Positions 8,800 to 54,978 of a DNA stretch of 54,978 nt are shown piece by piece (position 1 is the stretch's first letter; every line of letters begins with the position of its first letter). The notes beneath the pieces were generated by a model, which was given only the letters and a program-made list of their open reading frames with translations, was not told the DNA's origin and made no database searches. The translations under genes were made by a program, and so were the position numbers. This DNA comes from a virus, in the IMG/VR virus record IMGVR_UViG_3300044627_004059, positions 1-54,978 of that record. One strand, 5' to 3'.

Positions 8800-9014
8800 T
8801 GATACAACCAGCAACAAAAGATTGGATACAACAATTATTCGTGAAGGAGTTTGGCAACAAGCTCCTTCCGAGTGATTTCTATTACGAAAATGGCAATCGA
8901 GTAATGACCGAATCATATCATGAAAGACGAGGTTCTTGTTGCGGTAACGGATGCCGGCATTGTCCATATGAACCCCGTCATGAAAAAGGTGTAAAAACTT
9001 TGAAAATTCAATAA
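8799..9014 (+). CDS. DUF5522-like cysteine-rich protein
   Basis: 71 residues. The segment YYENGNRVMTESYHERRG followed by CCGNGCRHCPYEP matches the DUF5522 pattern, a small family common in Bacteroidetes. The four cysteines suggest a bound metal or Fe-S cluster, which is inference. Function is unknown. Its ATG overlaps the reductase stop (TAATG), so it may support the reductase. Confidence 0.65.
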   Translation: MIQPATKDWIQQLFVKEFGNKLLPSDFYYENGNRVMTESYHERRGSCCGNGCRHCPYEPRHEKGVKTLKIQ

Positions 9015-9027
9015 AATATTCTATATT
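8999..9027 (+). promoter_or_regulatory. Putative promoter for folE
   Basis: TTTG at 8999-9002 and TATATT at 9022-9027, separated by 19 bases, overlapping the end of the DUF5522 gene. TATAAATA, the exact T4 late box, overlaps at 9027-9034, twelve bases before the folE ATG. Confidence 0.45.
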
Positions 9028-9045
9028 ATAAATAATATTCAAGTT

Positions 9046-27720: not shown

Positions 27721-28346
27721 AAATAAGTTATGCAATTACAGTATGTAATGAGTTCATTGAAATTCAACGACTCATTACATTTCTTCTAGAACGCAAAAGA
27801 CCACAAGATGAGATTGTAGTATTAGTTGATACGACAAAGGCAGTACCTGAGTTAATATCCTACCTAGCGCATTGCGAAAGACACCATGAAGGTCATATGA
27901 CAACATGGAAGGATGAATTTAAAGGTAATTTTGCAGATTGGAAAAATAAACTAACGTCATATTGCAACGGAGACTATATTTTTCAAATTGATGCCGATGA
28001 GATGCCATGCACTCCTATTATGGAAGCATTACCGGGTATATTAAGTGCAAATGATGGCGTTGATATGATATGGGTGCCAAGAGTTAACACGGTGCCTGAT
28101 ATAACCGTAGACCACATTAAAAAGTGGGGGTGGCGTGTTAATAGCGAGGGTTGGATTAATTGGCCGGATTGGCAAGGACGAATCTATAAGAATCATCCAT
28201 CAATTCAGTGGGAGAATAAGGTACACGAAAAGTTAACTGGCATTAAAACATTTGCACAGTTACCAATGGAAGAAGATTATTCTTTATATCATCCAAAAAC
28301 AATTGAACGTCAAGTAAAACAAAACGAATATTACGATACATTATAA
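27717..28346 (+). CDS. GT2-like glycosyltransferase, 209 aa
   Basis: A GT-A fold. ISYAITVCNEFIEIQRLITF opens the nucleotide-binding half, and QIDADEMPC holds the DxD metal motif. The later IQWENKVHEKLTG is typical of GT2 members that read WxxxVHE. It is short, so it is probably a minimal domain. Coupled by ATGA upstream and TAATG downstream. Confidence 0.78.
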   Translation: MKISYAITVCNEFIEIQRLITFLLERKRPQDEIVVLVDTTKAVPELISYLAHCERHHEGHMTTWKDEFKGNFADWKNKLTSYCNGDYIFQIDADEMPCTPIMEALPGILSANDGVDMIWVPRVNTVPDITVDHIKKWGWRVNSEGWINWPDWQGRIYKNHPSIQWENKVHEKLTGIKTFAQLPMEEDYSLYHPKTIERQVKQNEYYDTL

Positions 28347-29782
28347 TGGCAACTTTTTGGAGAACATACAACAATAAATTATATGATATTGGTCAAACTG
28401 ATCAACTAGGATTTTCAATATCAGATCCTTCTTATATTCCAGATGAATATTTAGAACAACAAAATTTTGTAATATTACGTACATGTTTTGGCATTGGTGA
28501 TTGGGGTATTATATCAGCTATGCCTAGAAAATTAAAAGAACGTTATCCGGATTGCAAAGTTTGGATACCTTCTCCTAAATTATTAAAATCCATGTTCGAA
28601 CATTTAGAACAAAATTGGTCATCGTGGGATGATCCATTTCAAGTAGTTCATACTATATTTGATAACAATCCATGGATCGATGGTTTTATTGATTCTTTCG
28701 AAGAGGATGTGTTTAACGATCATTATCGGATATATTCGGATAATGATGAACCATTATTAGAACAAATTTTAAGATTTTGGCAGTTTAATGATATTAATGA
28801 TATTCAGCCCGAATTGTATTTTTCTAAACAAGAACAAGAATTAGGAAATTCGATAATTAAACACCATGTCGGCAATTCGGAATTTGGTTGTTTTTTGTTA
28901 TCTAATCGATATAATTACGAATCCGATAACGTTTTGATAAATGAATTAAATAAATTTGATGTTCCTTATTTTTATTGGACAAAAGATCCTATAGAAATGA
29001 CGCGTTTTAATTTTATTAATAAAGCGTTAAACATGAGAAACATTGATACTCGTATTCAATTGTATATTAAATCTAAAGCTAAAGTCAACATAGGAAATCA
29101 AACAGGTATGACACAATTAGTAACTAGATATTCGCAAGTAATTGAATTGCAACGGCAATTTCCAATTGGCTCTAATATAATAGAAAATGAAATTTTAATA
29201 TCGGATCCTTTAAAGGTAAAATTATTAAAAAATGTTCCGGATAAATGGGAATCTAAAACTACTACATCTTTAAAATTTAAATCAGAATTAATAGATTTCT
29301 TTAATAAATCTGAATATAAAAATTTAACCGCATTGGAAGTAGGGTCGTCTACGGGGTATACTACAAGAATATTAAGTAATTTATTTAATCGAGTTACTGC
29401 AGTTGACGTATTACCCGATCGACATGAATATTCAAGAAACAACGTAAATTTTGAAAATTCAAATATTACTTATGTAATAGCAGATGTATACAACGAAAAA
29501 TGGATGTTTGGACATCATGATATCGTATTAATCGATTGCATTCATACATATCAACATGTTAAACAAGATATACTTAATGCAATTGAACTTTGTAATAAAC
29601 CAATATTGGTGTTTGATGACTACGGCTTATTTCCAGATATTAAACAAGCTATTGATGAATTTATTGATAATGGCACTTTTGAAGTACTTCAATATATAGG
29701 TCATGCTTTAGGAACGATTATTCCTAAAACGCAAAATAAAATTTTAAAACATTATGAAGGTATAATATGTCAAGTAAAATAG
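28346..29782 (+). CDS. GT9-like domain fused to a SAM methyltransferase, 478 aa
   Basis: The N-terminal half (about 1-300) resembles heptosyltransferase-type GT-B proteins: TCFGIGDWGIISAMPRKLKE and VNIGNQTGMTQLVTRYSQVIEL near the end of the domain. The C-terminal half (about 310-478) is a class I methyltransferase: LEVGSSTGYTTRILSN near 330-345, then VTAVDVLPDRHEYS and DIVLIDCIHTYQHVKQD. A natural fusion of transfer and methylation of a sugar. The call for the first half is weaker than for the second. The gene looks more AT-rich than the two GT4 genes before it. Confidence 0.65.
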   Translation: MATFWRTYNNKLYDIGQTDQLGFSISDPSYIPDEYLEQQNFVILRTCFGIGDWGIISAMPRKLKERYPDCKVWIPSPKLLKSMFEHLEQNWSSWDDPFQVVHTIFDNNPWIDGFIDSFEEDVFNDHYRIYSDNDEPLLEQILRFWQFNDINDIQPELYFSKQEQELGNSIIKHHVGNSEFGCFLLSNRYNYESDNVLINELNKFDVPYFYWTKDPIEMTRFNFINKALNMRNIDTRIQLYIKSKAKVNIGNQTGMTQLVTRYSQVIELQRQFPIGSNIIENEILISDPLKVKLLKNVPDKWESKTTTSLKFKSELIDFFNKSEYKNLTALEVGSSTGYTTRILSNLFNRVTAVDVLPDRHEYSRNNVNFENSNITYVIADVYNEKWMFGHHDIVLIDCIHTYQHVKQDILNAIELCNKPILVFDDYGLFPDIKQAIDEFIDNGTFEVLQYIGHALGTIIPKTQNKILKHYEGIICQVK

Positions 29783-30489
29783 CAATATATACATCCATAT
29801 TTGGAGGATACGATAATTTAATTGAACATGAAATTAAATTTCCTGGCATTGATTTTATTTGTTTTTCAGATCGACAATTTGAATCAAAAACATGGAACGT
29901 AATACAATATCCTAAAATTTATTCGGATTCAAATAGAAATGCAAAAAAATTTAAAATACTTCCGCATCGATATTTAAAAGAATATGATTATAGTATATGG
30001 ATTGACGGAAATATGATAGTTAAAGAAAATCCAATTGAATTAATAAATTTATATTTATCTGATTCAAATGTAGCATTTTTTAGTCATGCTAATAATGTAT
30101 TAGATTCAAGAAATTGTATATATCAAGAAGCTCAATATATTTTAGATATAGGTCATAAAAATTATCAACAACGTCCGGATAGAGGAAATCTTTGTTATAA
30201 AGATAATCCTGCTTTAATTACGAAACAAATGGAAAACTATATACATGCTGGATATCCTTCAAATAATGGATTAATAACTGGAATGGTTATTGCGAGACGT
30301 CACAACGAAACAGACTGTATACAAGCTATGGAAGATTGGTGGACGGAGATTTGCTACAATTCTAAACGAGATCAATTAAGTTTTAATTATTGTGCATGGA
30401 AAAATAATTTAAAATTTAATTACATACCAGGAGATTCTCGAGACAATATCTTTTTTAAGAATTTAGGAAAACATATAGGAAAACAATAA
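29767..30489 (+). CDS. DUF616-like putative glycosyltransferase, 240 aa
   Basis: IAIYTSIFGGYDNLIE, then IDFICFSDRQF and YSIWIDGNMIVK match the DUF616/TOD1 group of putative GT-A glycosyltransferases, with WIDGN in the DxD position. The remaining helical part has several Trp and His. It overlaps the previous gene by 16 bases. Confidence 0.68.
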   Translation: MSSKIAIYTSIFGGYDNLIEHEIKFPGIDFICFSDRQFESKTWNVIQYPKIYSDSNRNAKKFKILPHRYLKEYDYSIWIDGNMIVKENPIELINLYLSDSNVAFFSHANNVLDSRNCIYQEAQYILDIGHKNYQQRPDRGNLCYKDNPALITKQMENYIHAGYPSNNGLITGMVIARRHNETDCIQAMEDWWTEICYNSKRDQLSFNYCAWKNNLKFNYIPGDSRDNIFFKNLGKHIGKQ

Positions 30490-30499
30490 TAAAAATAAT

Positions 30500-31210
30500 A
30501 TGATACAAATAGAACAATTAATTAAAACATATCATGAAGATGATATGGGCGGACATGATGTTAATATATTACATATGTCTGAAATACACACGAATTTCGT
30601 TCAGCCTGATTTGAACAAATTTACGTATAATCCAAATGATGATAACGATCAATCTGAATGGTATACAAAACAAAATTTTAATTACGATAATGCTAGAAAG
30701 GAAGAACATAGATTACGTAAATTTAGAATTTTTCATACGTATATGAAAAAGTATAATTGCAAATCTGTTTTAGACGTAGGGTTCGGTAGCGGATATTATA
30801 CTTGGAATTCTGCTATTAATGGATATGATACATTAGGAGCTGACTTTGAAAATGGTGCATATTATACTATGAAAAATATGTTAGAGACTAGTAATATTAA
30901 AAATTTAAGATTGTATAGTTTAAATTCAAATAGTATAGATAATTTAAATGAAACATTCGATGCAGTACTATCTATAGAAGTATTAGAACATATTTTAGAT
31001 CCTATGCCTTTACATGAAAGTCAAATTAAATTATGTAATAAGGTATTTTTTCTTGAAGAGTATTGTGGAGATCGTACAGTCACGGGACATATCGCACCCG
31101 AAGCAGCAAAAAAGCAAATTGTTGAAATGTGTTATGATTATGGTTTTGTAGAAGTACCGATGACATATGGATATCCTCCTCAAATATTTATTAAAAAAGA
31201 ATTACTGTAA
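30500..31210 (+). CDS. Class I SAM methyltransferase, 236 aa
   Basis: KSVLDVGFGSGYYTWNSA is motif I of Rossmann methyltransferases. TLGADFENGA (acidic residue at the end of strand 2) and FDAVLSIEVLEHILDPMPLH (motif post-II/III, VLEHxxDP) follow. Probably methylates a sugar or glycan. Linked to the next gene by TAATG. Confidence 0.8.
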   Translation: MIQIEQLIKTYHEDDMGGHDVNILHMSEIHTNFVQPDLNKFTYNPNDDNDQSEWYTKQNFNYDNARKEEHRLRKFRIFHTYMKKYNCKSVLDVGFGSGYYTWNSAINGYDTLGADFENGAYYTMKNMLETSNIKNLRLYSLNSNSIDNLNETFDAVLSIEVLEHILDPMPLHESQIKLCNKVFFLEEYCGDRTVTGHIAPEAAKKQIVEMCYDYGFVEVPMTYGYPPQIFIKKELL

Positions 31211-32016
31211 TGAAAAATATAGTTTTTATACCTTTTATTAAACGAGAAGATTCATTTACAACAAGATCTGGTATAGGTAAAGCGGGTCGTACTGACGGAT
31301 ATGAATATGGAATTGATTCATGGAAACAATGGTGTAAAAAACACGATTGCGAATTAGTTATAATGGATCAACTACTTATGCCAGAATCTGAAATGTTAAT
31401 AACTTGGCAACGTTGGTGTGTATTAGATATATTAGAACATAATGAAATTGAATATGACCAAGTTTTAGTAGTAGATGCCGATTCAATTGTACACCCAGAT
31501 TGTCCTAATTTTTTCGAATTAACTGATAATAAATTTTCAAGTCCGTTAACGGATGGAGATTATGAATGGGTATGTCGCGCCATTAATGGATATTCTAAAA
31601 TGTTTTTTAATAAAGAATATTGTTTGCCATCATATGAATTTTTTATGACTGGTTTCGTAATCGTTAATAAAACACATAAAGAATTTTTATCCAAAGTAAC
31701 AAATTGGTATTTAGAAAATAAAGATGCGGTTAAACAATCATATGATATTTTATTAACTGGTAGTGATATTGCTTTAATGAATTGTTTACGTAAAGAATTT
31801 GATATCGAATTAAATATACTTCCTAGAGAATACGGAGTAATGGATTTACATCGTAAAAATTTATTGTATGTATCGAACCAATGTTGGTGGAAAGACGATT
31901 TAACTAATTTATACAATTCCGGATGGGTATATCAATTTAATGCAATACCACAAAACGAACTAGGAAGAACTAGAGCATATTTTATGCAACGTATATACAA
32001 TGATTTATATAAATAA
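31210..32016 (+). CDS. Putative GT-A glycosyltransferase, 268 aa
   Basis: ITWQRWCVLDILEHNE followed by VLVVDADSIVHPDCPNFF gives a DxD-type metal motif after a hydrophobic strand, as in GT8 and related GT-A enzymes. YEFFMTGFVIVNKTH and TGSDIALMNCL are also typical late elements. The exact family is uncertain. Confidence 0.62.
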   Translation: MKNIVFIPFIKREDSFTTRSGIGKAGRTDGYEYGIDSWKQWCKKHDCELVIMDQLLMPESEMLITWQRWCVLDILEHNEIEYDQVLVVDADSIVHPDCPNFFELTDNKFSSPLTDGDYEWVCRAINGYSKMFFNKEYCLPSYEFFMTGFVIVNKTHKEFLSKVTNWYLENKDAVKQSYDILLTGSDIALMNCLRKEFDIELNILPREYGVMDLHRKNLLYVSNQCWWKDDLTNLYNSGWVYQFNAIPQNELGRTRAYFMQRIYNDLYK

Positions 32017-32046
32017 TTTGGTTAACTGTAAAAAAATGATTATATT
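32017..32046 (+). promoter_or_regulatory. Putative promoter inside the glycan cassette
   Basis: TTTG at 32017-32020 (followed by G), directly after a stop codon, and TATATT at 32041-32046 with 20 bases between, seven bases before the ATG at 32053. It separates the deoxysugar part of the cassette from the first transferases. Confidence 0.5.
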
Positions 32047-32052
32047 CATAAT

Positions 32053-33231
32053 ATGAAAAAAAATAAAATAGAATTTTTAAATTTAGGCAAACAGCCAATA
32101 GCTAATAAATTTATTGAAAAAACAGATATTGATAATGAGTTTTTCTACAATTTATCAGTTGGCTTTGATAATGAAACCAATTTAATAACTCATATGGAAT
32201 ATGTAGATCCGCCATTAATGTTTAACGAAACTTATGCATACAGAGGGTCTATGTCTAAAACAATGCAAACACATTTTAAAAATTTTAGTAAAATGTTAAA
32301 TTTAGACTCAAATAGTAAAGTATTAGAAATTGGAAGTAATGATGGAGTTTTTTTAAAAAATTGGAATCCGTTAACAACATTTGCAGTTGAACCATGTAGT
32401 AATTTTGCAAAAGAAACAAATGACATGGGATACAAAACATATTCAGAATTCTGGACTACTAACTTAGCTAATCGTATTAAATCGGAACATGGTACCATGG
32501 ATTTAATTTTTGCGGCTAATTGTATATGTCATATTCCGGATTTAGATGAAACGTTTAAAGCGGTACATACTTTATTATCCGATACAGGCTTGTTTATTTT
32601 TGAAGACCCATCGTTAGCTCAAATGATAAACACTAATTCATATGATCAGATATATGACGAACATCCTCATATTTTTTCAGTAATAGCATTACGTAATTTA
32701 CTATCAAGAAATGGTTTAACAATTGTTAAAGTAGATAATATACCCGTACATGGCGGTTCTAATCGTATATACGTAATGAAATCTGAATTTGCAAATGTAG
32801 ATTCTAGTGTAGAAAATAATATTCAATTTGAATTAATGTTAGGGTTAGATAAGTTAGAAACGTTTCAAAATTTCGCAAACAGGGTAGCTCAATCAAAAAC
32901 AGATTTAATTGAATTGTTAACTAGATGTAAACGATTAGGTAAAAAAATTATTAGTTATGGAGCAACTTCAAAATCTACTACCGTATTTAATTATTGCGAA
33001 ATCGATACATCATTAATTGATTATGTAATTGATACTACTCCAGAAAAAATAAGAAAATTAACTCCCGGATCGCATATTCCAATTAAAAATTCAAACGGAA
33101 TTGATTCCGATGTTGATGTAGTATATTTAGGTGCATGGAATTTTGCAACAGAAATTATGAATAAAGAATCAGAATTCATCGAACGCGGTGGTAAATTCAT
33201 TACACACGTTCCAATAGTAAAATTTATATAA
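32053..33231 (+). CDS. Sugar C-methyltransferase (NovU/TylC3-like)
   Basis: 392 residues. FLNLGKQPIANKF at the N-terminus is the tail of the zinc-binding domain of this family, but the usual leading CxxC pairs are absent. The methyltransferase core has KVLEIGSNDGVFLKN and DLIFAANCICHIPDLDETF. IYDEHPHIFSV, VHGGSNRIYVMKS and KIISYGATSKSTTVFNY are signature segments of the C-methyltransferases that act on dTDP-keto-deoxysugars. It suggests a branched deoxysugar. The first gene of the cupin, isomerase and aminotransferase group. Confidence 0.82.
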   Translation: MKKNKIEFLNLGKQPIANKFIEKTDIDNEFFYNLSVGFDNETNLITHMEYVDPPLMFNETYAYRGSMSKTMQTHFKNFSKMLNLDSNSKVLEIGSNDGVFLKNWNPLTTFAVEPCSNFAKETNDMGYKTYSEFWTTNLANRIKSEHGTMDLIFAANCICHIPDLDETFKAVHTLLSDTGLFIFEDPSLAQMINTNSYDQIYDEHPHIFSVIALRNLLSRNGLTIVKVDNIPVHGGSNRIYVMKSEFANVDSSVENNIQFELMLGLDKLETFQNFANRVAQSKTDLIELLTRCKRLGKKIISYGATSKSTTVFNYCEIDTSLIDYVIDTTPEKIRKLTPGSHIPIKNSNGIDSDVDVVYLGAWNFATEIMNKESEFIERGGKFITHVPIVKFI

Positions 33232-33241
33232 TATAGAATAT

Positions 33242-33625
33242 ATGACATTTCATGAAGATGACAGAGCGCAACGATTTCTGGATGTTTTTAACAACATTGA
33301 CGGGCAGATTAACGTGTCATATGTTAATTCTATAGAACATATAGTAGCGTGGCATAAACATAAAATACAAACAGATTATTGGATTTGTTTAAAAGGATCG
33401 TTTAAGGTTGGATTAGCATATGAAGATGGCACAGTTAAATGGGAATATCTGTCAGATAAAAATCCAAGAGTATTAGAAATTACACCAGGTATTTATCATG
33501 GATATAAAGCATTAGAACCAGGATCGATTTTATTATATTATTTAACAAAAAAATATAATCCCGATGACGAAATGCGCGCTGCGGTCGGTGCATTCAATGA
33601 AAGTTGGGATACTATAAATAAATAA
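33242..33625 (+). CDS. RmlC-like cupin, putative dTDP-sugar epimerase
   Basis: 127 residues. A short beta-barrel protein: VAWHKHKIQTDYWICLKGSFKVGLAY, EITPGIYHGYKAL and SILLYYLTKKYNPDDE read like a dTDP-4-dehydrorhamnose 3,5-epimerase (final YN..DE), with His and Lys/Tyr positions in place. It is shorter than RmlC (about 180 aa). It sits between a C-methyltransferase and a ketoisomerase, fitting sugar-nucleotide remodelling. Confidence 0.68.
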   Translation: MTFHEDDRAQRFLDVFNNIDGQINVSYVNSIEHIVAWHKHKIQTDYWICLKGSFKVGLAYEDGTVKWEYLSDKNPRVLEITPGIYHGYKALEPGSILLYYLTKKYNPDDEMRAAVGAFNESWDTINK

Positions 33626-33628
33626 CTT

Positions 33629-34042
33629 ATGGTTACATTAAATAACGTTTTAACATTTAGGCTGCGACAATACGTCGAACAGAATGGTAATTTATTGCCG
33701 ATAGAATTCGATAAGACTATTCCATTTAAACCTAAACGTACTTTTTTTGTATGTAATGTCCCTGATCAACAAATACGTGGTTGTCATGCACATTATAAAA
33801 CAAAACAATTAATAATATGTCTTAACGGTGAAATAACAGTTAAATTACATGATGGTAATAATGCACGATCATATGTATTAACAAGTGGCGATGCTATTTA
33901 CATACCAAATTTAATTTGGGACGAACAGATGTATCATTCAGTAGATACCGTGTTAGTATCGTTATGTAGTACACACTACGATACGGATGATTATATTCAT
34001 AATTTCGACGAGTTTGTAAAATTAAAAAAAAATAAAAAATGA
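33629..34042 (+). CDS. dTDP-4-keto-6-deoxyglucose 3,4-ketoisomerase (FdtA/QdtA-like)
   Basis: 137 residues. GNLLPIEFDKTIPFKPKR, then RGCHAHYKTKQLIICLNGE, and IYIPNLIWDEQMYHS, CSTHYDTDDYIHNFDEF match the FdtA/QdtA (WxcM-like) cupins that shift the keto group from C4 to C3 of dTDP-6-deoxyhexose. The following aminotransferase would then make a 3-amino sugar. Starts four bases after the previous stop. Confidence 0.82.
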   Translation: MVTLNNVLTFRLRQYVEQNGNLLPIEFDKTIPFKPKRTFFVCNVPDQQIRGCHAHYKTKQLIICLNGEITVKLHDGNNARSYVLTSGDAIYIPNLIWDEQMYHSVDTVLVSLCSTHYDTDDYIHNFDEFVKLKKNKK

Positions 34043-34058
34043 ATTTTTTAGAAGAATT

Positions 34059-34700
34059 ATGAATAAATGTAAAATACCGCATCTATCAATAGATAATTTT
34101 ATTCCATCAAATGCATTAGTACGAGCAGCTGCTAATAGTTTCCATCACGGTATGGATTGGGTTAAGTATGATGCTAGTGATAATCAAATACAATATTGTT
34201 CTAAGCTCGGCAGAGAAAACTTACCACTGGCTGCAGCACTTTGTTTGGATTACATAGCAACTAATTTTGACCCTAATACAGCTTTTAACGGTCTGACAAC
34301 AAATGCATTTCCAGACTTAACACATTATGGGGGAGGAATGATGATAACTCCTAATTCAAATAATGAGGGTGGATTCTTAGGAATGCATATAGATGCAGAA
34401 GTCCATGGACTGCATAACGATTGGAAACGAGAATATAGTGCTATACTTTGTTTATCTGAAGAATTTGACGAATCTTTTGATCTTAGACTACATGATGGCG
34501 TAAACCATACTCGAGTACCTTATAAGTTTAATACATTAAATATTTTTAAGTGTAGTGAATATTCATGGCACGGATTTCCAGAAATAACAAACGGCATGGA
34601 TCGTAAAACGTTAGGAGTTATGTTTTGGTCTAAAATGACTGATGAAGATAAAAAGAGAGAGAAGATAAAAGCTAGATTTAATAATAATTTACAGTTTTAG
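34059..34700 (+). CDS. 2-oxoglutarate/Fe(II)-dependent oxygenase
   Basis: 213 residues. The iron-binding facial triad is H110-x-D112 (in GMHIDAEVH) and H171 (in YSWHGFP), with R182 about eleven residues later as the 2-oxoglutarate-binding arginine. This is the double-stranded beta-helix pattern of prolyl hydroxylase-like enzymes. The substrate could be a sugar, glycan-linked side chain or protein. A GAAGAAT ribosome site precedes the ATG. Confidence 0.78.
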   Translation: MNKCKIPHLSIDNFIPSNALVRAAANSFHHGMDWVKYDASDNQIQYCSKLGRENLPLAAALCLDYIATNFDPNTAFNGLTTNAFPDLTHYGGGMMITPNSNNEGGFLGMHIDAEVHGLHNDWKREYSAILCLSEEFDESFDLRLHDGVNHTRVPYKFNTLNIFKCSEYSWHGFPEITNGMDRKTLGVMFWSKMTDEDKKREKIKARFNNNLQF

Positions 34701-34710
34701 TATTACTACA

Positions 34711-35418
34711 ATGAAAATTCTTATCTCAGGTGGCGACGGTAAGTTTGCAAAAGAATTGCAAATTCAGAATTCGAATTTTGAATTAATTTTATTGTCTAAA
34801 ACCAAAATGGATATTACTAATTTATCATCGATAAATAATGCTATTGATAAGTATAAGCCTGATGTCTTTATTCATACAGCTGCATTATCTCGTCCAATGA
34901 TAGTACATGATACGAATCCAGATAAAAGTATTCAGTTAAATATCATAGGTACTTCTAATTGTGTATTAGCATGCATGCAGCATAACATTAAAATAGTATA
35001 CATCTCTACCGATTTTATTTATCCTGGGATTAATGGAAATTACAAAGAAACTGATCCGATATATCCCGTCAATAAGTATGCTTGGTCAAAGTTAGGCGGA
35101 GAATGTTCTTGTATGTTGTATGAAAATTCTTTAATATTACGTATAGCAATGTTTGTTAAACCATTTCCGCACGATAAAGCATTTGTAGATAGTTTTAAAA
35201 GTCCTTTATGGAATGATGAAGCTGCAAAAATACTACTAAGATTAATTGAATTAAATGCTACCGGAATTTATAATATCGGAGGAGAAAAAAAATCAATATA
35301 TGATTTTGTAATACGAGAAAATTTCAATATATTAAAAGAAAATAAAGCTAATATCAAAGAAAACGTGCCAACAGATGTTAGTATGAATCTTACTAAATTA
35401 AATGATATTTTGTTATGA
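34711..35418 (+). CDS. RmlD-like NAD(P)-dependent sugar reductase/epimerase
   Basis: 235 residues. ILISGGDGKFAKEL gives the N-terminal GxxGxxA-type dinucleotide site, DVFIHTAALSRPM and VYISTDFIYPG are family segments, and YAWSK (about 122-126) is the YxxxK catalytic pair. Shorter than RmlD (about 290 aa), with a reduced C-terminal substrate domain. Probably reduces the 4-keto group of a dTDP-deoxysugar. Overlaps the aminotransferase by four bases. Confidence 0.75.
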   Translation: MKILISGGDGKFAKELQIQNSNFELILLSKTKMDITNLSSINNAIDKYKPDVFIHTAALSRPMIVHDTNPDKSIQLNIIGTSNCVLACMQHNIKIVYISTDFIYPGINGNYKETDPIYPVNKYAWSKLGGECSCMLYENSLILRIAMFVKPFPHDKAFVDSFKSPLWNDEAAKILLRLIELNATGIYNIGGEKKSIYDFVIRENFNILKENKANIKENVPTDVSMNLTKLNDILL

Positions 35419-36338
35419 TACAATTATTTAACATTCCAAATTATACAATCGATACTTCGAAGTTTTCGCATTATTTGCATGGCACTAATGTAACAGATTT
35501 TGAACAACGTTTTGCAGAATATGTAGGTGCAAAATATGCAGTTAGCGTTAATAGTGCAACAAATGCTATTTTTTTAATGTTTTTAAACAAAAACTTAACT
35601 ATTAATGTTCCGTCAATGATTCCTCCGGTTGTACTAAATGCGTTAATTACATCTGGAAATAAAATTAATTTTATAGACGATACTGAGTGGATTGGCGGAT
35701 CGTATACATTGCATAAATTTGAAGATTATAAAATTATTGATTCTGCGCAACGAGTAGATGCAAATCAGTTTAAAATAGAAGCTAATGAAAATGATTTAAT
35801 GTTTTTTAGTTTTTATCCTACAAAACCAGTAGGCAGTACGGATGGTGGTATTATAGTTAGTAACGATAAACAAAAAATCGATTATTTACGAATGTTATCA
35901 TTTAACGGAATGTCGTTTGCTGAAAACAATTGGGATAGGAAAATATGTATGCCTGGTTATAAGTTTTATATGAATAGTATTCAAGCATATATTGCAAATG
36001 AAAATTTATCTAAATTAGAACATAAAAAACAACGATTATTTGAAGTACGACATATTTATAATAAAGAATTAGGTTATAATAATACAAGCGAACATTTGTA
36101 TAGAATTAATGTTAAAGATCGCGATGAGTTTATAAAACATATGAAATCCGTCGGTATATTATGTGGTATTCATTACGAATCGCAACATTGCAATGATGTT
36201 TATACTAAATCTGTAAAATTTATTTGTCCAAATTCTGAATTAGAATCATTAACTACCGTCAGTATTCCATTTCACGAATCTTTAACTAAAAACGAAGTAA
36301 TCCACATTATTAAAAATATTAAGTATGCGACTATGTGA
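35415..36338 (+). CDS. DegT/DnrJ/EryC1-type sugar aminotransferase
   Basis: 307 residues. FEQRFAEYVGAKYAVSVNSATNAIFL is the PLP-binding start, and FFSFYPTKPVGSTDGG holds the catalytic Lys near residue 137 before the conserved GG. The C-terminal half includes YKFYMNSIQAYIANENL, typical of this family. It is about 60 residues shorter than usual. It would aminate the 3-keto sugar made by the FdtA-like isomerase. Overlaps the next gene by 14 bases. Confidence 0.8.
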   Translation: MIQLFNIPNYTIDTSKFSHYLHGTNVTDFEQRFAEYVGAKYAVSVNSATNAIFLMFLNKNLTINVPSMIPPVVLNALITSGNKINFIDDTEWIGGSYTLHKFEDYKIIDSAQRVDANQFKIEANENDLMFFSFYPTKPVGSTDGGIIVSNDKQKIDYLRMLSFNGMSFAENNWDRKICMPGYKFYMNSIQAYIANENLSKLEHKKQRLFEVRHIYNKELGYNNTSEHLYRINVKDRDEFIKHMKSVGILCGIHYESQHCNDVYTKSVKFICPNSELESLTTVSIPFHESLTKNEVIHIIKNIKYATM

Positions 36339-36855
36339 ACAACATAAATATCAAGAAAATGAACGATGTATTCATGAATTTGTAAAAACACATCAACCTA
36401 AAACAATTGTTGAATTAGGCTACGGCTCTGGTGCATTAACGGTTGCTATGAGTTATGCTTGTAGAGAATACAATGGTTTGATTTTTTCTTATGATATGAT
36501 ATCTCCAAATTTAGCTATTTCTAGATTAACGGAACGAAATTTATATGATTTATGTACTATAACTCAAGGAAACGTTTACAAAACGTATTTAGTTGACCCA
36601 ATACCATTTGATATGATATTGATAGATATTGATAATACATGGGAACTGATATTTGATGTTGTTATTAACAATGAATTTATCAATAAACAAATTAAACAAG
36701 GTTCTAAAGTGATTATCGAAGGCGGTGCTGATTTACATCCTCGAATAAATAAAACTACATTGAAACATTTTCATAATACAATTGGAAAAGACGTATTCGA
36801 ATTTACACACATATCAGGCCCTCGAACTAGTTTATCTATTTTAAATTTATTATGA
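36325..36855 (+). CDS. SAM methyltransferase-like protein, 176 aa
   Basis: TIVELGYGSGALTVAMSYA is a motif I-like Gly-rich loop, and FDMILIDIDNTWELI follows at the motif III position. The protein is short. The rest, with IIEGGADLHPRINK, does not point to a known substrate. Probably a sugar or glycan methyltransferase. Coupled to the next gene by ATGA. Confidence 0.6.
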   Translation: MRLCEQHKYQENERCIHEFVKTHQPKTIVELGYGSGALTVAMSYACREYNGLIFSYDMISPNLAISRLTERNLYDLCTITQGNVYKTYLVDPIPFDMILIDIDNTWELIFDVVINNEFINKQIKQGSKVIIEGGADLHPRINKTTLKHFHNTIGKDVFEFTHISGPRTSLSILNLL

Positions 36856-37718
36856 AAAAATTAGCAGTTATAGCCTCCGGCTGGCATTATGCATATCAAT
36901 TTTATGAAGGCATCGCTTCGCAGAGTATTCCAGCTGATTTACATGTTGATTTATTTGTTATTAGTCATAGAAAACCTGATGATTTTAATACGATAAATGA
37001 AAAAGAATACATCAGACAGTATAACGGCGATAATTTACTTTATAAATTAGATAAAGAGTTGTATAAAAAAGTTATTACGAAACAAGATTTATCTAATATG
37101 GGTTGGAAATATCTCGAAAAGCCTAATACTATCGGAGATATGGAAGTTTTTAACCAATGGTCAGAAGATTATGATTTTAAAGATTACGATATATTTCTTA
37201 TCACGCACGATGATAATTTAATTTTATCTGACCAACTGTTCGTTGATATTTTTAGTAATGAAATTAAATTATTTAAACCTATATACGAATCTAGATATGG
37301 ATCTACGGGACATCAATTTAAAACCCATATGGTACAAAATGAATTGGATTGGATGTTTTTAGATAATGGATATTCCGAATATATTCCTAAAGCATATACT
37401 CCACGTGGTTCTTTTAGTTTTTATACAAAAGAACTTATAAATTTATTACCAGAACATAAATTTCCAATGGATAATATATCATTAACTAGAGTCGGGTTAA
37501 CTAATTCGGGTGAATACAAAGATTTAACCGAATGGAATACAAATGCTGGAAATTTTAGAAATTTTTTATATAAAGATTCGTTAGTAGAAAAAACTCGATG
37601 GTTATCGGAAACTAAACGAGTTAGTAAATATTGTATCGAAGGCGAACGAGGATTCATTCATAATAACAATAGCAATGAATTTCATTATGAAAACGCCGTT
37701 AAAAACATTATATCATGA
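36852..37718 (+). CDS. Hypothetical protein of the glycan cassette, 288 aa
   Basis: No family I can name. The start KLAVIASGWHYAYQFYEGI, then DLFVISHRKPDDFN, and DYDIFLITHDDN near residue 115-125 look like a GT-A-type nucleotide-sugar site (hydrophobic strand before THDD). A role as a glycosyltransferase is inference from that and from context. ATGA overlaps on both sides. Confidence 0.5.
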   Translation: MKKLAVIASGWHYAYQFYEGIASQSIPADLHVDLFVISHRKPDDFNTINEKEYIRQYNGDNLLYKLDKELYKKVITKQDLSNMGWKYLEKPNTIGDMEVFNQWSEDYDFKDYDIFLITHDDNLILSDQLFVDIFSNEIKLFKPIYESRYGSTGHQFKTHMVQNELDWMFLDNGYSEYIPKAYTPRGSFSFYTKELINLLPEHKFPMDNISLTRVGLTNSGEYKDLTEWNTNAGNFRNFLYKDSLVEKTRWLSETKRVSKYCIEGERGFIHNNNSNEFHYENAVKNIIS

Positions 37719-38446
37719 TAACAAATCCTATAATACATGACAGACACATAGTTAAAAACTATTTTGAAAATATGGTTTTTAATAATATACACAAAAATAA
37801 ATTTATTACGCCAAAAGATCTTACAATTGTAACATGTAGAAACTTAGGTACTATGGAAGATAGAATTATCAATTCTTTATCTGGATATGAACATAAATCA
37901 ATATTAGAATGTAATTTAGAATATTTAGGAATTAATGATTTAGTTGTATTGACTGACAATCGATTGCCATGGCGAAATACTTTTAAAATTGAAATGATTT
38001 ATAATTATCTTCAATCTGGTAAGTGTACTACAAAATACATTATGTATTGCGATGCAATTGATGTAATTTTTATTGACGATCCGAATCGCGTAATAGATAT
38101 TTTTAAAGCACATGAATGTAAAATGTTATTCATGTCAACGCCAGCTAAACATGGTTATGCACTTATGCCACAAATAAAACAATGGGCAGATAAACTTAGT
38201 ACTAGATATTTAAATTCTGGCGTATGGATAGGTGAAACTGATTTCGTATACGATGTATTTCATGAAGCACGTAACTATATAACTCCACATGGTGCTACAA
38301 TGGATAAGTTATCCGAATATTGGAATTCGAAACCAGAAAATTTTCCAATTGGGTCTGATGATCAAGATATACTAAGATTTATTCAACCTAAATTTCATCC
38401 AGAACTTAAAGTTGATTATGATAATATAATAGCATATAGAAATTAA
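37715..38446 (+). CDS. Putative procollagen-galactosyltransferase-like protein, 243 aa
   Basis: YIMYCDAIDVIFIDDPNRVID holds a DxxD-type metal site after a hydrophobic strand. RYLNSGVWIGETDFV and IGSDDQDILRFIQ resemble the late elements of PLOD-type glycosyltransferases. The N-terminus TIVTCRNLGTMEDRI is unlike theirs. Coupled to the preceding gene by ATGA. Very AT-rich gap of 28 bases after it. Confidence 0.55.
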   Translation: MITNPIIHDRHIVKNYFENMVFNNIHKNKFITPKDLTIVTCRNLGTMEDRIINSLSGYEHKSILECNLEYLGINDLVVLTDNRLPWRNTFKIEMIYNYLQSGKCTTKYIMYCDAIDVIFIDDPNRVIDIFKAHECKMLFMSTPAKHGYALMPQIKQWADKLSTRYLNSGVWIGETDFVYDVFHEARNYITPHGATMDKLSEYWNSKPENFPIGSDDQDILRFIQPKFHPELKVDYDNIIAYRN

Positions 38447-38474
38447 AAAAAAATTTTTTTATTTTAAAAAATAA

Positions 38475-39413
38475 ATGAAAATAGCATTTTTTACAGAAAT
38501 GGGATTTTCTGGTAAAATACCAAGAACCCATGATAACATGAGAACGGAATTTGCATGGATGTGTGCGTTGAATTCTGATCATATTAACATAAATCACGCA
38601 TTGACTGAATTTGAATATATAGAAGCACCAGTTTATGATTTAGGTATAGTTATTATTCCTAAACATGTTAAAGAATTTGATATCAATAAATTAAAAACGA
38701 TTTGTAATAAAATTGCAGTAATGCAAGAAGGTCCAAATTGGCTTTGGCAAGACTATTCATTAGAACAACAAATTTGGTATTTCAATACATTAACATCTGC
38801 AGATATTATTTTTACACACAATGAAACGGATCGAAAATATTATCAAGGATTAACGACTCATCCGGATGTACGCGTATTGCCTAGTTTGATGATTGAAGAT
38901 TCTATAGGAGAATTAAAAATTGAAGAACGCCAAGATGTTATTATAGGTGGAAATTTTGTGTCTTGGTATGGTGGATTCGATTCTATGATTATAGCTAAAG
39001 AACTAGGAGATGTAGTATATGCGCCATCAATGGGTCGAAAACAACCCCTCGAAGACCAATTGGTTACGCATCTTCCATATATGAATTGGAAACAATGGAT
39101 CCATGAATTAAATAAGTTTAAATATGGTATTCATTTAATGCGAACTCACGCTGCCGGTACATTTGCATTGAATTGTTCGTATTTAGGAATTCCGTGTATA
39201 GGATACAAAGGATTAGATACTCAAGAACAACTTCATCCGGATTTAACAGTTGAATTAGGAGACTTAACATCTGCTAGAAAACTTGCGGCAAAACTTAGGA
39301 CGAATGAAGAATTTTATTTATATTGTAGTAATATAACAAAAAGATTATACGAAGAAAAATATCATGAAAATAAGTTTTATACAACCTTCACGGAACAATT
39401 TAAAGTATCTTAA
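38475..39413 (+). CDS. GT-B-like glycosyltransferase, 312 aa
   Basis: KIAFFTEMGFSGKIPRTHDN opens the protein, VMQEGPNWLWQD and DVIIGGNFVSWYGGFDS lie in the middle, and FKYGIHLMRTHAAGTFALNCSYLGIPCIGY is a donor-domain segment of GT-B enzymes (glycine-rich turn, then strand). The protein is smaller than the GT4 members at 24947 and 26434. Its 3' end overlaps the next gene by 50 bases. Confidence 0.65.
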   Translation: MKIAFFTEMGFSGKIPRTHDNMRTEFAWMCALNSDHININHALTEFEYIEAPVYDLGIVIIPKHVKEFDINKLKTICNKIAVMQEGPNWLWQDYSLEQQIWYFNTLTSADIIFTHNETDRKYYQGLTTHPDVRVLPSLMIEDSIGELKIEERQDVIIGGNFVSWYGGFDSMIIAKELGDVVYAPSMGRKQPLEDQLVTHLPYMNWKQWIHELNKFKYGIHLMRTHAAGTFALNCSYLGIPCIGYKGLDTQEQLHPDLTVELGDLTSARKLAAKLRTNEEFYLYCSNITKRLYEEKYHENKFYTTFTEQFKVS

Positions 39414-40572
39414 ATGGTCTTACGACGCAATCAGAAAAAATCAAGGCAATCATGAAGTAGAAATTTGCGTTGCAGATGATTTCAGCGATAAAGATGGTAC
39501 TTGGGATTGGTGTGTAGAAATGATGGAAAAAGATCCATTATTCAGAGCAATTCGTAATGAAGGTCCAGCTCGCCTAGGACATACAATATTGTATGATCGT
39601 TTAGTTAATGAAGTAGCATCATTCGATATTTGTATGATATATCATGCGGATATGTATCTATGTCCTGGAGCTTTGGATGCGATTGAAAAACATATTGGTT
39701 CCAAAAAAATTGTATCATTAACACGAATCGAACCTCCATTACATCCACCTGGACCAGAAAAGGTATTATTAAATTGTGGAGTTGAACCGGAACAATTTAA
39801 TGAAGATAAATTACTACATCATTTAGAAATGGAGTATGATATCGTATACGATGATAAAACAACTGAAGGTATATTTGCTCCATGGGCATTCATGAAATAC
39901 GATTTCCAAGAGATAGGAGGACACGATCCATTATATGCTCCGCAGTCAAAGGAAGATTCGGATATATTCAATCGATTTCAATTAAATGGAGTTTCATTCA
40001 TACAAACATGGGAAGGGTTTGTTTATCATATGACTTGCAGAGGTAGTAGATTTAATCCTACGTTAACAACCCCAGGACAAAATTCTCCGGAATGGGAAGC
40101 TCAGAATATAAGATCAACTCGAAACTTTATTCGTAAATGGGGACACTTTTGTAAACACGATACATTAATGAAACCTATAATACCGCCAAAATATAACATA
40201 GCATTTGTTGTTAAAAATTGCAATTCATATTTATTAGAAGCATTAGAACCATGGTGTGATAGAATATACATAGAAGATGATATGCAAGTATTAACGACGC
40301 ATTACATTGATAAGGAACAATCTAACACGGCATTTGACTTAACAAAACGAGTATTTTGTATCGGATACAACGATCCAAATGCAGAAAATGATATCGTTAT
40401 TGAAATCGATAGAAATCGGTTTTCGGAACAAGATTTTCAATACATTCAAATGATGTCAGAAATCATACAAAGTTCCGGAGAAGTAGGAGACTTTAAATTA
40501 GAAAATTTAAAAGTAACAATTAATCATTTAGAAACATACGAAAAAGATTTAATAATATGCGAAATGCAATAG
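39364..40572 (+). CDS. GT2-like glycosyltransferase, 402 aa
   Basis: ISFIQPSRNNLKYLKWSYDA is the N-terminal strand and helix of GT2 enzymes, EICVADDFSDKDGT supplies the base-binding Asp pair, ICMIYHADMYLCPGALDAI the DxD-type metal site, and PWAFMKYDFQEIGGHDPLYAPQSKEDSDIFNRF the downstream catalytic acidic motif. The start at 39364 is deep inside the previous gene, but the conserved fold begins right there, so the 50-base overlap is real. The last 150 residues are of unknown type. Confidence 0.78.
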   Translation: MKISFIQPSRNNLKYLKWSYDAIRKNQGNHEVEICVADDFSDKDGTWDWCVEMMEKDPLFRAIRNEGPARLGHTILYDRLVNEVASFDICMIYHADMYLCPGALDAIEKHIGSKKIVSLTRIEPPLHPPGPEKVLLNCGVEPEQFNEDKLLHHLEMEYDIVYDDKTTEGIFAPWAFMKYDFQEIGGHDPLYAPQSKEDSDIFNRFQLNGVSFIQTWEGFVYHMTCRGSRFNPTLTTPGQNSPEWEAQNIRSTRNFIRKWGHFCKHDTLMKPIIPPKYNIAFVVKNCNSYLLEALEPWCDRIYIEDDMQVLTTHYIDKEQSNTAFDLTKRVFCIGYNDPNAENDIVIEIDRNRFSEQDFQYIQMMSEIIQSSGEVGDFKLENLKVTINHLETYEKDLIICEMQ

Positions 40573-47640: not shown

Positions 47641-48042
47641 ATGTTTGAACAAATTGTACATAGTATTAATTGCTATGGCAAAACAAAATTAGCTCCGTCG
47701 CTTGTATGTGACGGAGTTGGTGTTTTCGCAATAACAGAAATCGATTCCAATTATGTACTATTTGATGATGTTGAGCCGGATACCATCCATATTCCGTATG
47801 AAATGATTACAGATATATCAGTACGAAAACATTTAACATCTACATGTAATTCAGATGAATTTGGAATTTGGCTTTCTAGAACATATAATAATATTAATAT
47901 GTCTTACTATATAAATCATTCAGACACGCCTAACGTATATCACGATTTAAAACAAGATAAATATGTTACAATACGTAGTATATTGCCAGGCGAAGAATTA
48001 ACTTGTACTTATACTAAAGAGGAGATCGATTGGCTTACTTAA
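47641..48042 (+). CDS. Stand-alone SET domain protein, 133 aa
   Basis: The short SET fold is visible in order: CDGVGVFAITEI (SAM-loop GxG type), SYYINHSDTPNVYHD (the NHSxxPN pseudoknot motif) and ILPGEELTCTYTKEE (the GEELxxxY motif). SET proteins methylate lysine in proteins such as ribosomal or histone-like targets. Without a pre-SET or post-SET domain, the substrate is unclear. It is coupled to the next gene through TTG over its last codons. Confidence 0.8.
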   Translation: MFEQIVHSINCYGKTKLAPSLVCDGVGVFAITEIDSNYVLFDDVEPDTIHIPYEMITDISVRKHLTSTCNSDEFGIWLSRTYNNINMSYYINHSDTPNVYHDLKQDKYVTIRSILPGEELTCTYTKEEIDWLT

Positions 48043-49016: not shown

Positions 49017-49904
49017 ATGATACGGTTAAAGTCGTTGTTGAATGAAGATGTCGATTGGTACATAAGAGAAGATGGAGATTGGAATTATTCTAAAATCGAA
49101 TCAAGTAAAAGTGCACGGGATATTGCGCAATTGCTTAGACGTTCCAGAGGCATATTCAACGATGACGAAGCTGTAGCAGAGGCTGCATTTATTGCAATGA
49201 CTAAATCTAATATTTATGATGCAGTAAAAAAGTCATTAAGCCGAGATCCATATGGATATGTTTCATCTTTTATATCAACTGGTAACATGTATCACAAACA
49301 ATCAATTGATACTTCCTATAGAAAAATTCTAGCCAACAAAAAGAAAGCTAGTACTACAGCTGCCGCAACTACTACACCCGCTCCATCCGGTAATCCCATG
49401 ACTCAAAGTTTTAAAAATTTAATTAAAAGTTGGGAAAATAGCAAATCATATAAACCGGGAGGATGGAATCCAAAAAAAGAAAAATGGTATCCACATAAAA
49501 GTCCCGAAGGTGGAACTCCTACTATTGCATATGGACACAAATTAACAGAACAAGATGTACTCACCGGTAAATTTAAAAACGGATTAACTGACAGTGAAGC
49601 ATTGAGATTGTTTGATTCGGATCTATTAACAGCACAAAACAAAGCAATGAAGTTAATTCCAAAATTTGCAAAACTTCCAACAGCAACAAAACAAGCATTG
49701 ATTAATTCATGTTATCGAGGCGAGATGTCTAACGAAAAAATGCCGAAAACATTGAAATTGATGCGCGATGGGAAATGGAAAGAAGCTGCAGCTGAATATT
49801 TAGATAATGAAGAGTATCGCGAAGCTGGTGCTAACGTTCGTGGCAGAATGGAATGGAATGCACGTCAATTTGCGGCAACTAGTAAATTTGGATTCGTTTC
49901 ATAA
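49017..49904 (+). CDS. Virion-type GH24 lysozyme, 295 aa
   Basis: N-terminal MIRLKSLLNED ends in the L-N-E pattern of a prohead-protease site. A helical domain (about 20-105), then an Ala/Thr linker, then the lysozyme domain (about 125-295): SFKNLIKSWENSK with the catalytic Glu near 139, and TPTIAYGHKLTEQDVL with the Tyr-Gly-His and Thr triad positions. GH24 enzymes cut peptidoglycan. The leader suggests packaging in the head and injection with DNA, not lysis from within. A baseplate role is the alternative. Confidence 0.72.
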   Translation: MIRLKSLLNEDVDWYIREDGDWNYSKIESSKSARDIAQLLRRSRGIFNDDEAVAEAAFIAMTKSNIYDAVKKSLSRDPYGYVSSFISTGNMYHKQSIDTSYRKILANKKKASTTAAATTTPAPSGNPMTQSFKNLIKSWENSKSYKPGGWNPKKEKWYPHKSPEGGTPTIAYGHKLTEQDVLTGKFKNGLTDSEALRLFDSDLLTAQNKAMKLIPKFAKLPTATKQALINSCYRGEMSNEKMPKTLKLMRDGKWKEAAAEYLDNEEYREAGANVRGRMEWNARQFAATSKFGFVS

Positions 49905-53180: not shown

Positions 53181-53307
53181 TTTAGCGGCTTCAAGAGAGT
53201 CACAACGACAACAAGGTTACTTCGATGGCCGGTTTGTTCCGAGAGTCGAACAATCTAAAAAAACATACACCCGCAAACACAAACACAAAAAACATGCACA
53301 TGAATAA
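53155..53307 (+). CDS. Small basic protein, 50 aa
   Basis: It starts at ATG 53155 in the last codons of the gene above and ends in KHKHKKHAHE, very basic and His-rich. Its stop overlaps the secreted protein's start. Possibly an RNA- or DNA-binding peptide; no family. Confidence 0.4.
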   Translation: MNNQTLKINLAASRESQRQQGYFDGRFVPRVEQSKKTYTRKHKHKKHAHE

Positions 53308-54364
53308 GATATTACTAGTATTTCTATTTTTAACTGGATTTGCAAATGCACAAACAGTTATTCGTTATGATTACATGGAAACATGGAATTGGGCAGGGCT
53401 ATGGTGGACTCCAGCAGCTACAGCCAATTGGTTTACTAATGCATCAGTTACTCCAACTGAAAGTGCTGTGTTGTATGGAATTGGCTCTGGTACTAGTGCT
53501 ATAGAACAAGATTGGTATTCATTACCCAATGTCACCGGATTGGATGCTACAAAACAATATCAATTTAAATTTAGATTAGCTTCATATACATTTTCAAATC
53601 CAACAGCTACGACCCGTGGAGCTGATGTAGCTGACTATGTTTCCGTGCAAGTATCTACCAATGGCGGCGTATCTTACGTTAACGAAATGAGAATAACGGG
53701 AAACAGCAACGCAACATGGCCATACACTGCAACGGGTACTATTACGCATACAGCAAATGGAACATTTACAAATTCAGCAGCACCCGTTGGCGATGTGTAT
53801 CAAGCACCAAGCGGCGCATCCACTACCGGACCATCAACCATTACACTCAATTTACCTGCCGGCATTACGCAGGTTGCAGTTGATTTGTATTGCAGAGCCA
53901 ATTCGGCAGGAGAAGAATGGTGGATTGACAACGTAGAACTAATTGAAGTTATTGCATTGCCGGTTGAGATGATATCATATGAAGCACGAAGCACCAGCTT
54001 AGGCAATTTGTTAATTTGGAAAACTGCTTCCGAACACAACACATCTCATTACGAAATACAAAGAATGCAAGATGGTGACTTTAAAACCATATCGCAAATA
54101 CCTGCGGCAGGTAATAGTACTGAACTTCTTACATATACATTTGTAGACAATGAATTTGATTCGCAAATCAATTACTATCAAATTGTGCAATACGATAATG
54201 ATGGATACTTTGAAATCTATGGACCAATATCAGTTGACAATAGCAAACAACGAGTAGTTGTAAAAGTCGTAAACATGTTAGGACAAACTATCGATCCGCA
54301 ATTTGAATCTGGAGCATACATTGAAATTTATGACGACGGTACCATGAAAAAAGTTATCAAATAA
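53300..54364 (+). CDS. Secreted Bacteroidetes-type protein with T9SS-like C-terminus, 354 aa
   Basis: A signal peptide MNKILLVFLFLTGFANA ends at a likely cut after Ala 17, followed by a mature start QTVIRYDYMETWNW. The body (about 20-230) is a Ser/Thr/Asn-rich beta protein with a carbohydrate-binding-like or jelly-roll look. Residues about 230-320 (LPVEMISYEARSTSLGNLLI, WKTASEHNTSHYEIQRM) are the fibronectin-like region found in many Bacteroidetes proteins before the sorting domain. The last 35 residues (VVKVVNMLGQTIDP, then GAYIEIYDDGTMKKVIK) match the type A T9SS C-terminal signal. It is probably exported and displayed on the host surface. A virion adhesin is the alternative. An ATG at 53294 adds two residues. 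Confidence 0.72.
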   Translation: MNKILLVFLFLTGFANAQTVIRYDYMETWNWAGLWWTPAATANWFTNASVTPTESAVLYGIGSGTSAIEQDWYSLPNVTGLDATKQYQFKFRLASYTFSNPTATTRGADVADYVSVQVSTNGGVSYVNEMRITGNSNATWPYTATGTITHTANGTFTNSAAPVGDVYQAPSGASTTGPSTITLNLPAGITQVAVDLYCRANSAGEEWWIDNVELIEVIALPVEMISYEARSTSLGNLLIWKTASEHNTSHYEIQRMQDGDFKTISQIPAAGNSTELLTYTFVDNEFDSQINYYQIVQYDNDGYFEIYGPISVDNSKQRVVVKVVNMLGQTIDPQFESGAYIEIYDDGTMKKVIK

Positions 54365-54414: not shown

Positions 54415-54978
54415 ATGAAAAGAAAGATTTTTGGTATTGTTAGAGATAACAAGGTATTTGAAGTGGGAACAGGCAGAGACATTTCAGCAATGTTCCGAGA
54501 TGTTATGATTAAAGCCGCAGTTGAAAACGGCAAAGCATTAGCATTCGATGAAGAAACAGGTCGTGCAAGACAAGTAGAATTGTCAGAAGTACCAACCGAA
54601 CCTATGCAACCTCAACAGAAAGCTGAACCCGTAGAAATGGATCCGGTGATGGCTCTTATTACCAATGCTGCTAACATTAAGCCCAATGATTTAGAAATGT
54701 CTGACATCAAATGGAAGTATCTTGTTAGGTCGGCAGTTCGAGGCAAGAACATCATGATGGTTGGTCCTGCAGGATGTGGTAAGACACAAGCAGCAAAGGC
54801 ACTTCCCGTTGCAACGGATCGTCCATTCTTTTATTTTAACTTGGGTGCGACTCAAGATCCTAGAGCCACTCTTATTGGTAATACGCATTTCAAATCCGGA
54901 GAGACTACCTTTGATGAATCTTCATTTGTTAAAGCAATTCAAACGGAGAATGCAGTTATTCTTCTAGATGAATTGTCC
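54415..54978 (+). CDS. CobS/MoxR-type AAA+ ATPase, 3' truncated by the window
   Basis: 188 codons, running off the end with no stop. A variable N-terminal part (about 1-95, with a proline- and glutamine-rich stretch PTEPMQPQQKAEPVEM) precedes the ATPase: Walker A MMVGPAGCGKTQ near residues 118-130 and Walker B ILLDELS at the last residues. NLGATQDPRATLIGN follows. T4-like environmental phages often carry a CobS-like ATPase of this type, whose function is unclear and not tied to cobalamin. The ATG at 54408 is out of frame, so 54415 is the start. Confidence 0.72.
   Translation, partial: MKRKIFGIVRDNKVFEVGTGRDISAMFRDVMIKAAVENGKALAFDEETGRARQVELSEVPTEPMQPQQKAEPVEMDPVMALITNAANIKPNDLEMSDIKWKYLVRSAVRGKNIMMVGPAGCGKTQAAKALPVATDRPFFYFNLGATQDPRATLIGNTHFKSGETTFDESSFVKAIQTENAVILLDELS

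Follow-up and report, generated by a model that had tools for sequence, protein, structure and literature searches.

Phage-encoded cargo of the type IX secretion system (T9SS) has already been published. Cryophage encodes genes with the T9SS sorting domain of its host, and its type A cargos are an endoglucanase, a GH39 protein and a PA14 protein, with superinfection exclusion proposed there too (PMC7468147, 2020). Meanwhile, gut phages of 'cluster 2' encode BACON-domain proteins with T9SS sorting domains near their head section, and the passages of the article that deal with these proteins describe no class of short C-terminal sorting domains, or short CTDs (PMC6949934, 2019). On the bacterial side, the short CTDs of Prevotella intermedia are 40-51 aa long and predicted to form three strands, with motifs B and D lying close together. 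For some of these cargos the cleavage sites and glycosylation were determined experimentally, and P. intermedia was reported as the only species observed with short CTDs (PMC11969387, 2025).

Here, we describe a gene in a virus record of IMG/VR that is 54,978 bases long (the window, by which we mean this whole stretch of DNA), which also encodes the T4-type genes UvsX, DNA polymerase and ribonucleotide reductase (RNR). We consider it very likely that an infected Bacteroidota cell exports the product of this gene through its own T9SS, a statement that concerns the cargo and not the benefit derived from it. More tentatively, and at a little short of an even chance, we postulate that a widespread phage family with a compact Crocinitomicaceae-type T9SS signal coats infected cells in a lectin-like domain, and that phage lineages exchange the gene and fit it with the CTD class of their current host. 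Unlike the Cryophage cargos, this jelly-roll/FN3 family has no recognised enzyme domain, carries a short CTD that falls outside TIGR04183, and occurs in many phage lineages. What is new relative to the open-access literature is the family itself, its spread over phage lineages, the short CTD beyond Prevotella, and the occurrence of two CTD classes on a single domain. The features of the gene and its neighbour are given in Table 1.

Table 1 Features of the candidate T9SS cargo gene and its downstream neighbour in the window
Feature	Positions	Strand	Basis
Whole gene, candidate phage-encoded T9SS cargo, putatively secreted, 354 aa	53300..54364	+	Start ATG 53300, stop ends 54364
Predicted Sec signal peptide, residues 1-17 (MNKILLVFLFLTGFANA), cleavage probably before QT	53300..53350	+	Hydropathy and charge pattern, 31 relatives
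Predicted jelly-roll (MAM / cleaved-adhesin-like) domain (N-domain), residues 18-219	53351..53956	+	AlphaFold model, VIA-align, conservation
FN3-like beta-sandwich, typical of Bacteroidota T9SS cargo, residues 220-314	53957..54241	+	Bacteroidota matches in 84,980 genomes; pLDDT mostly 85-94
Short T9SS-type C-terminal sorting tail, residues 315-354 (VNMLGQ...GAYIEIYDDGTMKKVIK)	54242..54361	+	Bacterial-only tail HMM, hhalign, modelled strands
Neighbouring AAA_5 (MoxR/CobS-like) ATPase, truncated by the window end	54415..54978	+	Cluster represented in 16 sources out of those compared (the window plus 53 loci)

An earlier note on this DNA had delimited the open reading frame correctly, and the gene is real. 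An in-frame ATG is also open upstream at 53225; this start is unlikely, because the relatives align from position 53300. The same note had proposed an N-terminal signal peptide, and the pattern is indeed conserved. All 31 aligned relatives preserve the signal-peptide-like character of the N-terminus (MNKILLVFLFLTGFANAQ) despite an identity of 36% in this part. By a composition test, every one of these N-termini has a K or R within the first six residues and a 10-residue hydropathy peak of 2.2-3.8, and all but one (30/31) lack acidic residues among the first 20.

The ending of the protein had been read in the earlier note as a type A sorting signal, with a search against TIGR04183-type models named as the check and a missing hit as grounds for rejection. 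The window protein matched neither TIGR04183 nor PF18962 nor any NCBIfam model, so that this check formally came out against the reading, and the remaining Pfam models and PHROGs gave no relevant match. The sorting-type character of the ending stood, in a shortened form that these type A models do not match. An HMM built solely from 11 bacterial short tails (A4) matched the full window protein at 41.6 bits (E=1.3e-11, Z=4000). With the last 45 residues in isolation the score was 47.1 bits, against 10.9 for the best among 5000 shuffles, and no other ORF of the window was significant with this HMM.

The architecture of the tail is consistent with this assignment. Whereas a type A CTD is a seven-strand Ig-like domain of ~70-80 residues, the window tail has ~38 residues (the CTD start being approximate) and three predicted strands (320-325, 339-344 and 349-353), in a block with pLDDT of 78-90. 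Aligned with hhalign against long type A CTDs, the phage short-tail profile reached a probability of 84.6; between LGQ and GxY the alignment had a gap of 18 columns, which suggests the same kind of shortening as in the published short CTDs. The length, the three strands and the short B-D distance that characterise short CTDs are all found in the window tail, given the approximate CTD start. So are their motifs: NMLGQ (motif B, assigned by eye), G-A-Y (the GxY motif D) and KKVIK (the basic motif E), with G328 of LGQ invariant in 31/31 aligned sequences. The window tail thus looks like a short CTD, in which three predicted strands are what is left of a type A CTD. With the P. intermedia short CTDs it shares a basic ending and a motif B that contains Gly and lies near the GxY motif D; those CTDs belong to bacterial Prevotella proteins, whereas here the short class occurs in Crocinitomicaceae and phages.

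The distribution of this tail in bacteria provided insights into its probable use. The C-terminal part of a phage relative (138 aa of L028, query A3) was searched against 84,980 genomes, and the matches listed were Bacteroidota as far as they were named. The FN3-like region of the window protein (LPVE...YDNDG) also matches Bacteroidota proteins, which bears out the Bacteroidetes-type fibronectin-like region of the earlier note. Bacterial proteins that share this FN3-like part fall into two types: some have a canonical long type A CTD at their end, others a short tail resembling that of the window protein. The short tail was found up to 12 times per genome in 12 genomes, on ORFs of ~200-2100 aa with otherwise different bodies. 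In the intact ORFs examined, 0-4 residues follow the tail up to the C-terminus, while the frame of one match (L142) is interrupted. The short-tailed bacterial proteins with a visible start open with signal-peptide-like sequences. Judged from these sequences, the short tail has in bacteria the character of a sorting signal, a C-terminal tag placed on many different host-type secreted proteins. All 12 of these genomes encode SprA above the cut-off, with TIGR04183 matches ranging from 42 to at least 150 per genome.

Brumimicrobium belongs to the Crocinitomicaceae. The short tail was present in 55/100 genomes of the family of a Brumimicrobium genome (G002), and in 3/296 genomes sampled across the phylum, namely the query genome G002 itself and two partial matches. 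This distribution also hints at the host group of the phage, because the tails behind the HMM were those of the nearest relatives of the phage tail. A freshwater member of the Crocinitomicaceae (Fluviicola/Brumimicrobium group) is the likely host; the earlier note had assumed a flavobacterium, and Flavobacterium is not supported. Since annotation models miss the short class of putative T9SS signals, Crocinitomicaceae secretomes are probably undercounted.

Relatives of the gene were detected at 53 IMG/VR loci, with 34 distinct full-length proteins; 31 relatives entered the alignment, and 49 members with a complete C-terminus were counted, the window protein included. The short-tail HMM matched 41 of these 49. 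In six others (L043, L052, L044 and L046-L048) the same N-domain is combined with a long type A tail, and two (L036 and L037) match neither tail model. All three long-tailed members tested against TIGR04183 passed its cut-off of 23 bits (L043 with 40.1, L047 and L048 with 38.7 each). A single N-domain family thus carries two classes of T9SS CTD, which is otherwise hard to explain and suggests that the ending works as a sorting signal. The central proposal of the earlier note, a phage protein with the sorting signal of its host, is well supported by the TIGR04183-positive phage relatives, the bacterial tail class and a chromosomal homologue described below. Among 948 ORFs of the window and the phage flanks, the short-tail and canonical-tail profiles detected no second T9SS-tailed protein. 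Other proteins with short or TIGR04183 tails are encoded in the huge-phage records LR745206 (L164), LR756502 (L165) and LR756500 (L166), of 462-642 kb. These matches begin at 3001 onward in LR745206.1, LR756502.1 and LR756500.1, and the ending in LR756500.1 matched TIGR04183 at 32.7 bits.

From these features we infer the following route. The Sec signal peptide would bring the protein across the inner membrane, and the host T9SS (PorV/PorU) would then read the short CTD of ~38 aa and bring the protein across the outer membrane, probably attaching it to surface polysaccharide. The part displayed would be, according to the predicted fold, a MAM/cleaved-adhesin-like jelly roll on an FN3-like stalk.

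A search of the PDB with the sequence of the window protein returned nothing useful, and fold searches with the model of the entire protein yielded low TM-scores; the N-domain was therefore modelled alone (pTM 0.77, mean pLDDT 75, residues 9-37 unreliable). With VIA-align this model matched the meprin MAM domain (Z 11.2, rmsd 3.1, 143 aligned residues) and the K3 cleaved-adhesin domain of Kgp (3m1h; Z 10.8, rmsd 3.1, 146 aligned, target of 176), followed by CBM61 and CBM16 (Z 8.4-9.9). Pfam had no family match for the N-domain, though the fold matches reach Z of about 11. Kgp of P. gingivalis is itself a T9SS cargo, and its K3 domain is a jelly roll like the N-domain; however, their identity is about 10%, and MAM domains score equally well. 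A common fold is no proof of function, and the model suggests that the N-domain may bind a glycan or a protein.

The most likely benefit, although speculative and in our view possible rather than probable, is that the protein would mask the receptor used by the phage, or a surface glycan, on infected cells and so block superinfection or the re-adsorption of progeny. Adhesion or aggregation is the next candidate. This leads to an explanation that overlaps with ours and differs in the benefit only, namely that the protein is exported through the T9SS for adhesion, carbohydrate foraging or competition, as a moron-like gain in host fitness. The match of the N-domain fold to CBMs, MAM and cleaved-adhesin domains is compatible with it, as are the glycoside hydrolases among the Cryophage cargos (PMC7468147) and the strong purifying selection on the N-domain, which would be expected for binding a conserved target. 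We nevertheless regard it as unlikely: no enzyme fold was found for the window protein, and long-term gains in host fitness bring a phage little when it appears, like that of the window (UvsX, DNA polymerase, RNR), to be a lytic T4-type virus.

Selection on the gene could be estimated from informative pairs of relatives. The whole gene has a dN/dS of about 0.10-0.23, indicative of purifying selection, and the N-domain, with about 0.05-0.27, is under strong purifying selection, which suggests that its putative target is conserved. Receptor-type diversifying selection on the N-domain was rejected on the same values. Mean identity is highest in the N-domain (68%), followed by the FN3-like part (43%), the tail (38%) and the signal peptide, so that the tail and the FN3-like part are the least conserved mature parts of the family. 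Within the window-type context the gene diverges more than its neighbours, mainly through these two parts. The loci L032 and L033 have flanks that are 96-98% identical around a gene that differs (around 7950-9030; N-domain dS 0.66), and with such near-identical flanks and a divergent gene the alleles appear to have been swapped, as if recombination had exchanged the core of the gene.

The gene occupies at least six different neighbourhoods across the phage loci and is best seen as a mobile accessory gene. The window-type neighbourhood displays an AAA ATPase, a CobT-like protein and a GroEL-like gene. The GroEL-like chaperonin gene, recognised by sequence only, lies downstream of the T9SS-tailed gene (L013, 12566-14191, with relatives in ten loci). 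In one lineage the major head protein cluster (phrog_138) precedes the gene; elsewhere it is found near the portal gene in L038 and near the large terminase gene in L041. T9SS sorting domains that adjoin phage head genes are reminiscent of gut phage 'cluster 2', as far as PMC6949934 describes it. Adjacency to head, portal and terminase genes in several lineages fits late expression, and it also fits a role in the virion.

If the product were a virion protein, such as a head decoration or a fibre, the Bacteroidota-like ending would be merely a structural strand. Phage virions commonly contain jelly-roll and FN3 domains, which together with these neighbourhoods speaks for such a role. Nevertheless, we judge it very improbable. 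The signal-peptide-like N-terminus of every aligned relative indicates that the product would leave the cytoplasm, where virions are assembled; two different T9SS CTD classes sit on the same N-domain; and in the lineage of the window the gene lies beside an AAA ATPase rather than virion genes. That the protein reaches the periplasm only, or is released by lysis, with its tail a disused legacy of a host protein, would agree with the low identity of the tail and FN3-like part relative to the N-domain and with the two members that match neither tail model, but it is equally remote given the recognisable short tail in 41/49 complete members, the type A tail in six, and a dN/dS below 1 in the FN3 and tail part.

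The evolutionary origin of the putatively exported family appears to involve the hosts themselves. A profile search detected relatives of the N-domain in 17/200 genomes of the family of G002 and in 5/296 genomes across the phylum. The notion of a phage-only domain, suggested by a whole-protein scan that found no bacterial relative, was rejected on the 17 family genomes; the initial lack of bacterial relatives is explained by the limits of a pattern search with a whole-protein alignment. One bacterial contig (L182), which by inspection carries recA and other ordinary bacterial genes, encodes a protein with the signal peptide, the N-domain, the FN3-like region and a TIGR04183 match of 44.6 bits. 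Contamination by phage contigs was checked for the three bacterial genomes whose N-domain matches scored best, and the genes on their contigs look, by inspection, like ordinary bacterial ones. In the phylogenetic tree two bacterial rows are placed within the phage rows; support is moderate, and one branch is long. Taken together, the sequences point to a likely repeated exchange of the gene with hosts. The acquisition from the host proposed in the earlier note is upheld as far as shared ancestry with host proteins goes (L182 and the tree), whichever the direction of transfer.

If our reading is correct, T9SS-dependent remodelling of the cell surface is a common strategy among phages of freshwater Bacteroidota. 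The use of the outer-membrane export of the host, so far reported for few phages, is suggested to be common by a single family, spread over many freshwater phage lineages, with two interchangeable sorting signals.

Other genes of the window provide further observations on this virus. A 295-aa protein (49017-49904) displays a phage lysozyme domain (PF00959) in its C-terminal part; no signal peptide is evident. The protein at 41844-42962 matches the PAS fold twice (PF08447, E=3.1e-25), which gives this phage a domain of the sensor type. A 133-aa SET-domain protein (PF00856, E=2.6e-8, above the Pfam cut-off) at 47641-48042 is a possible protein-lysine methyltransferase. Finally, positions 24947-40572 hold a long run of genes, large for a phage, that includes glycosyltransferase, sugar C-methyltransferase (PF08484) and nucleotide-sugar epimerase genes and could modify surface or virion glycans.
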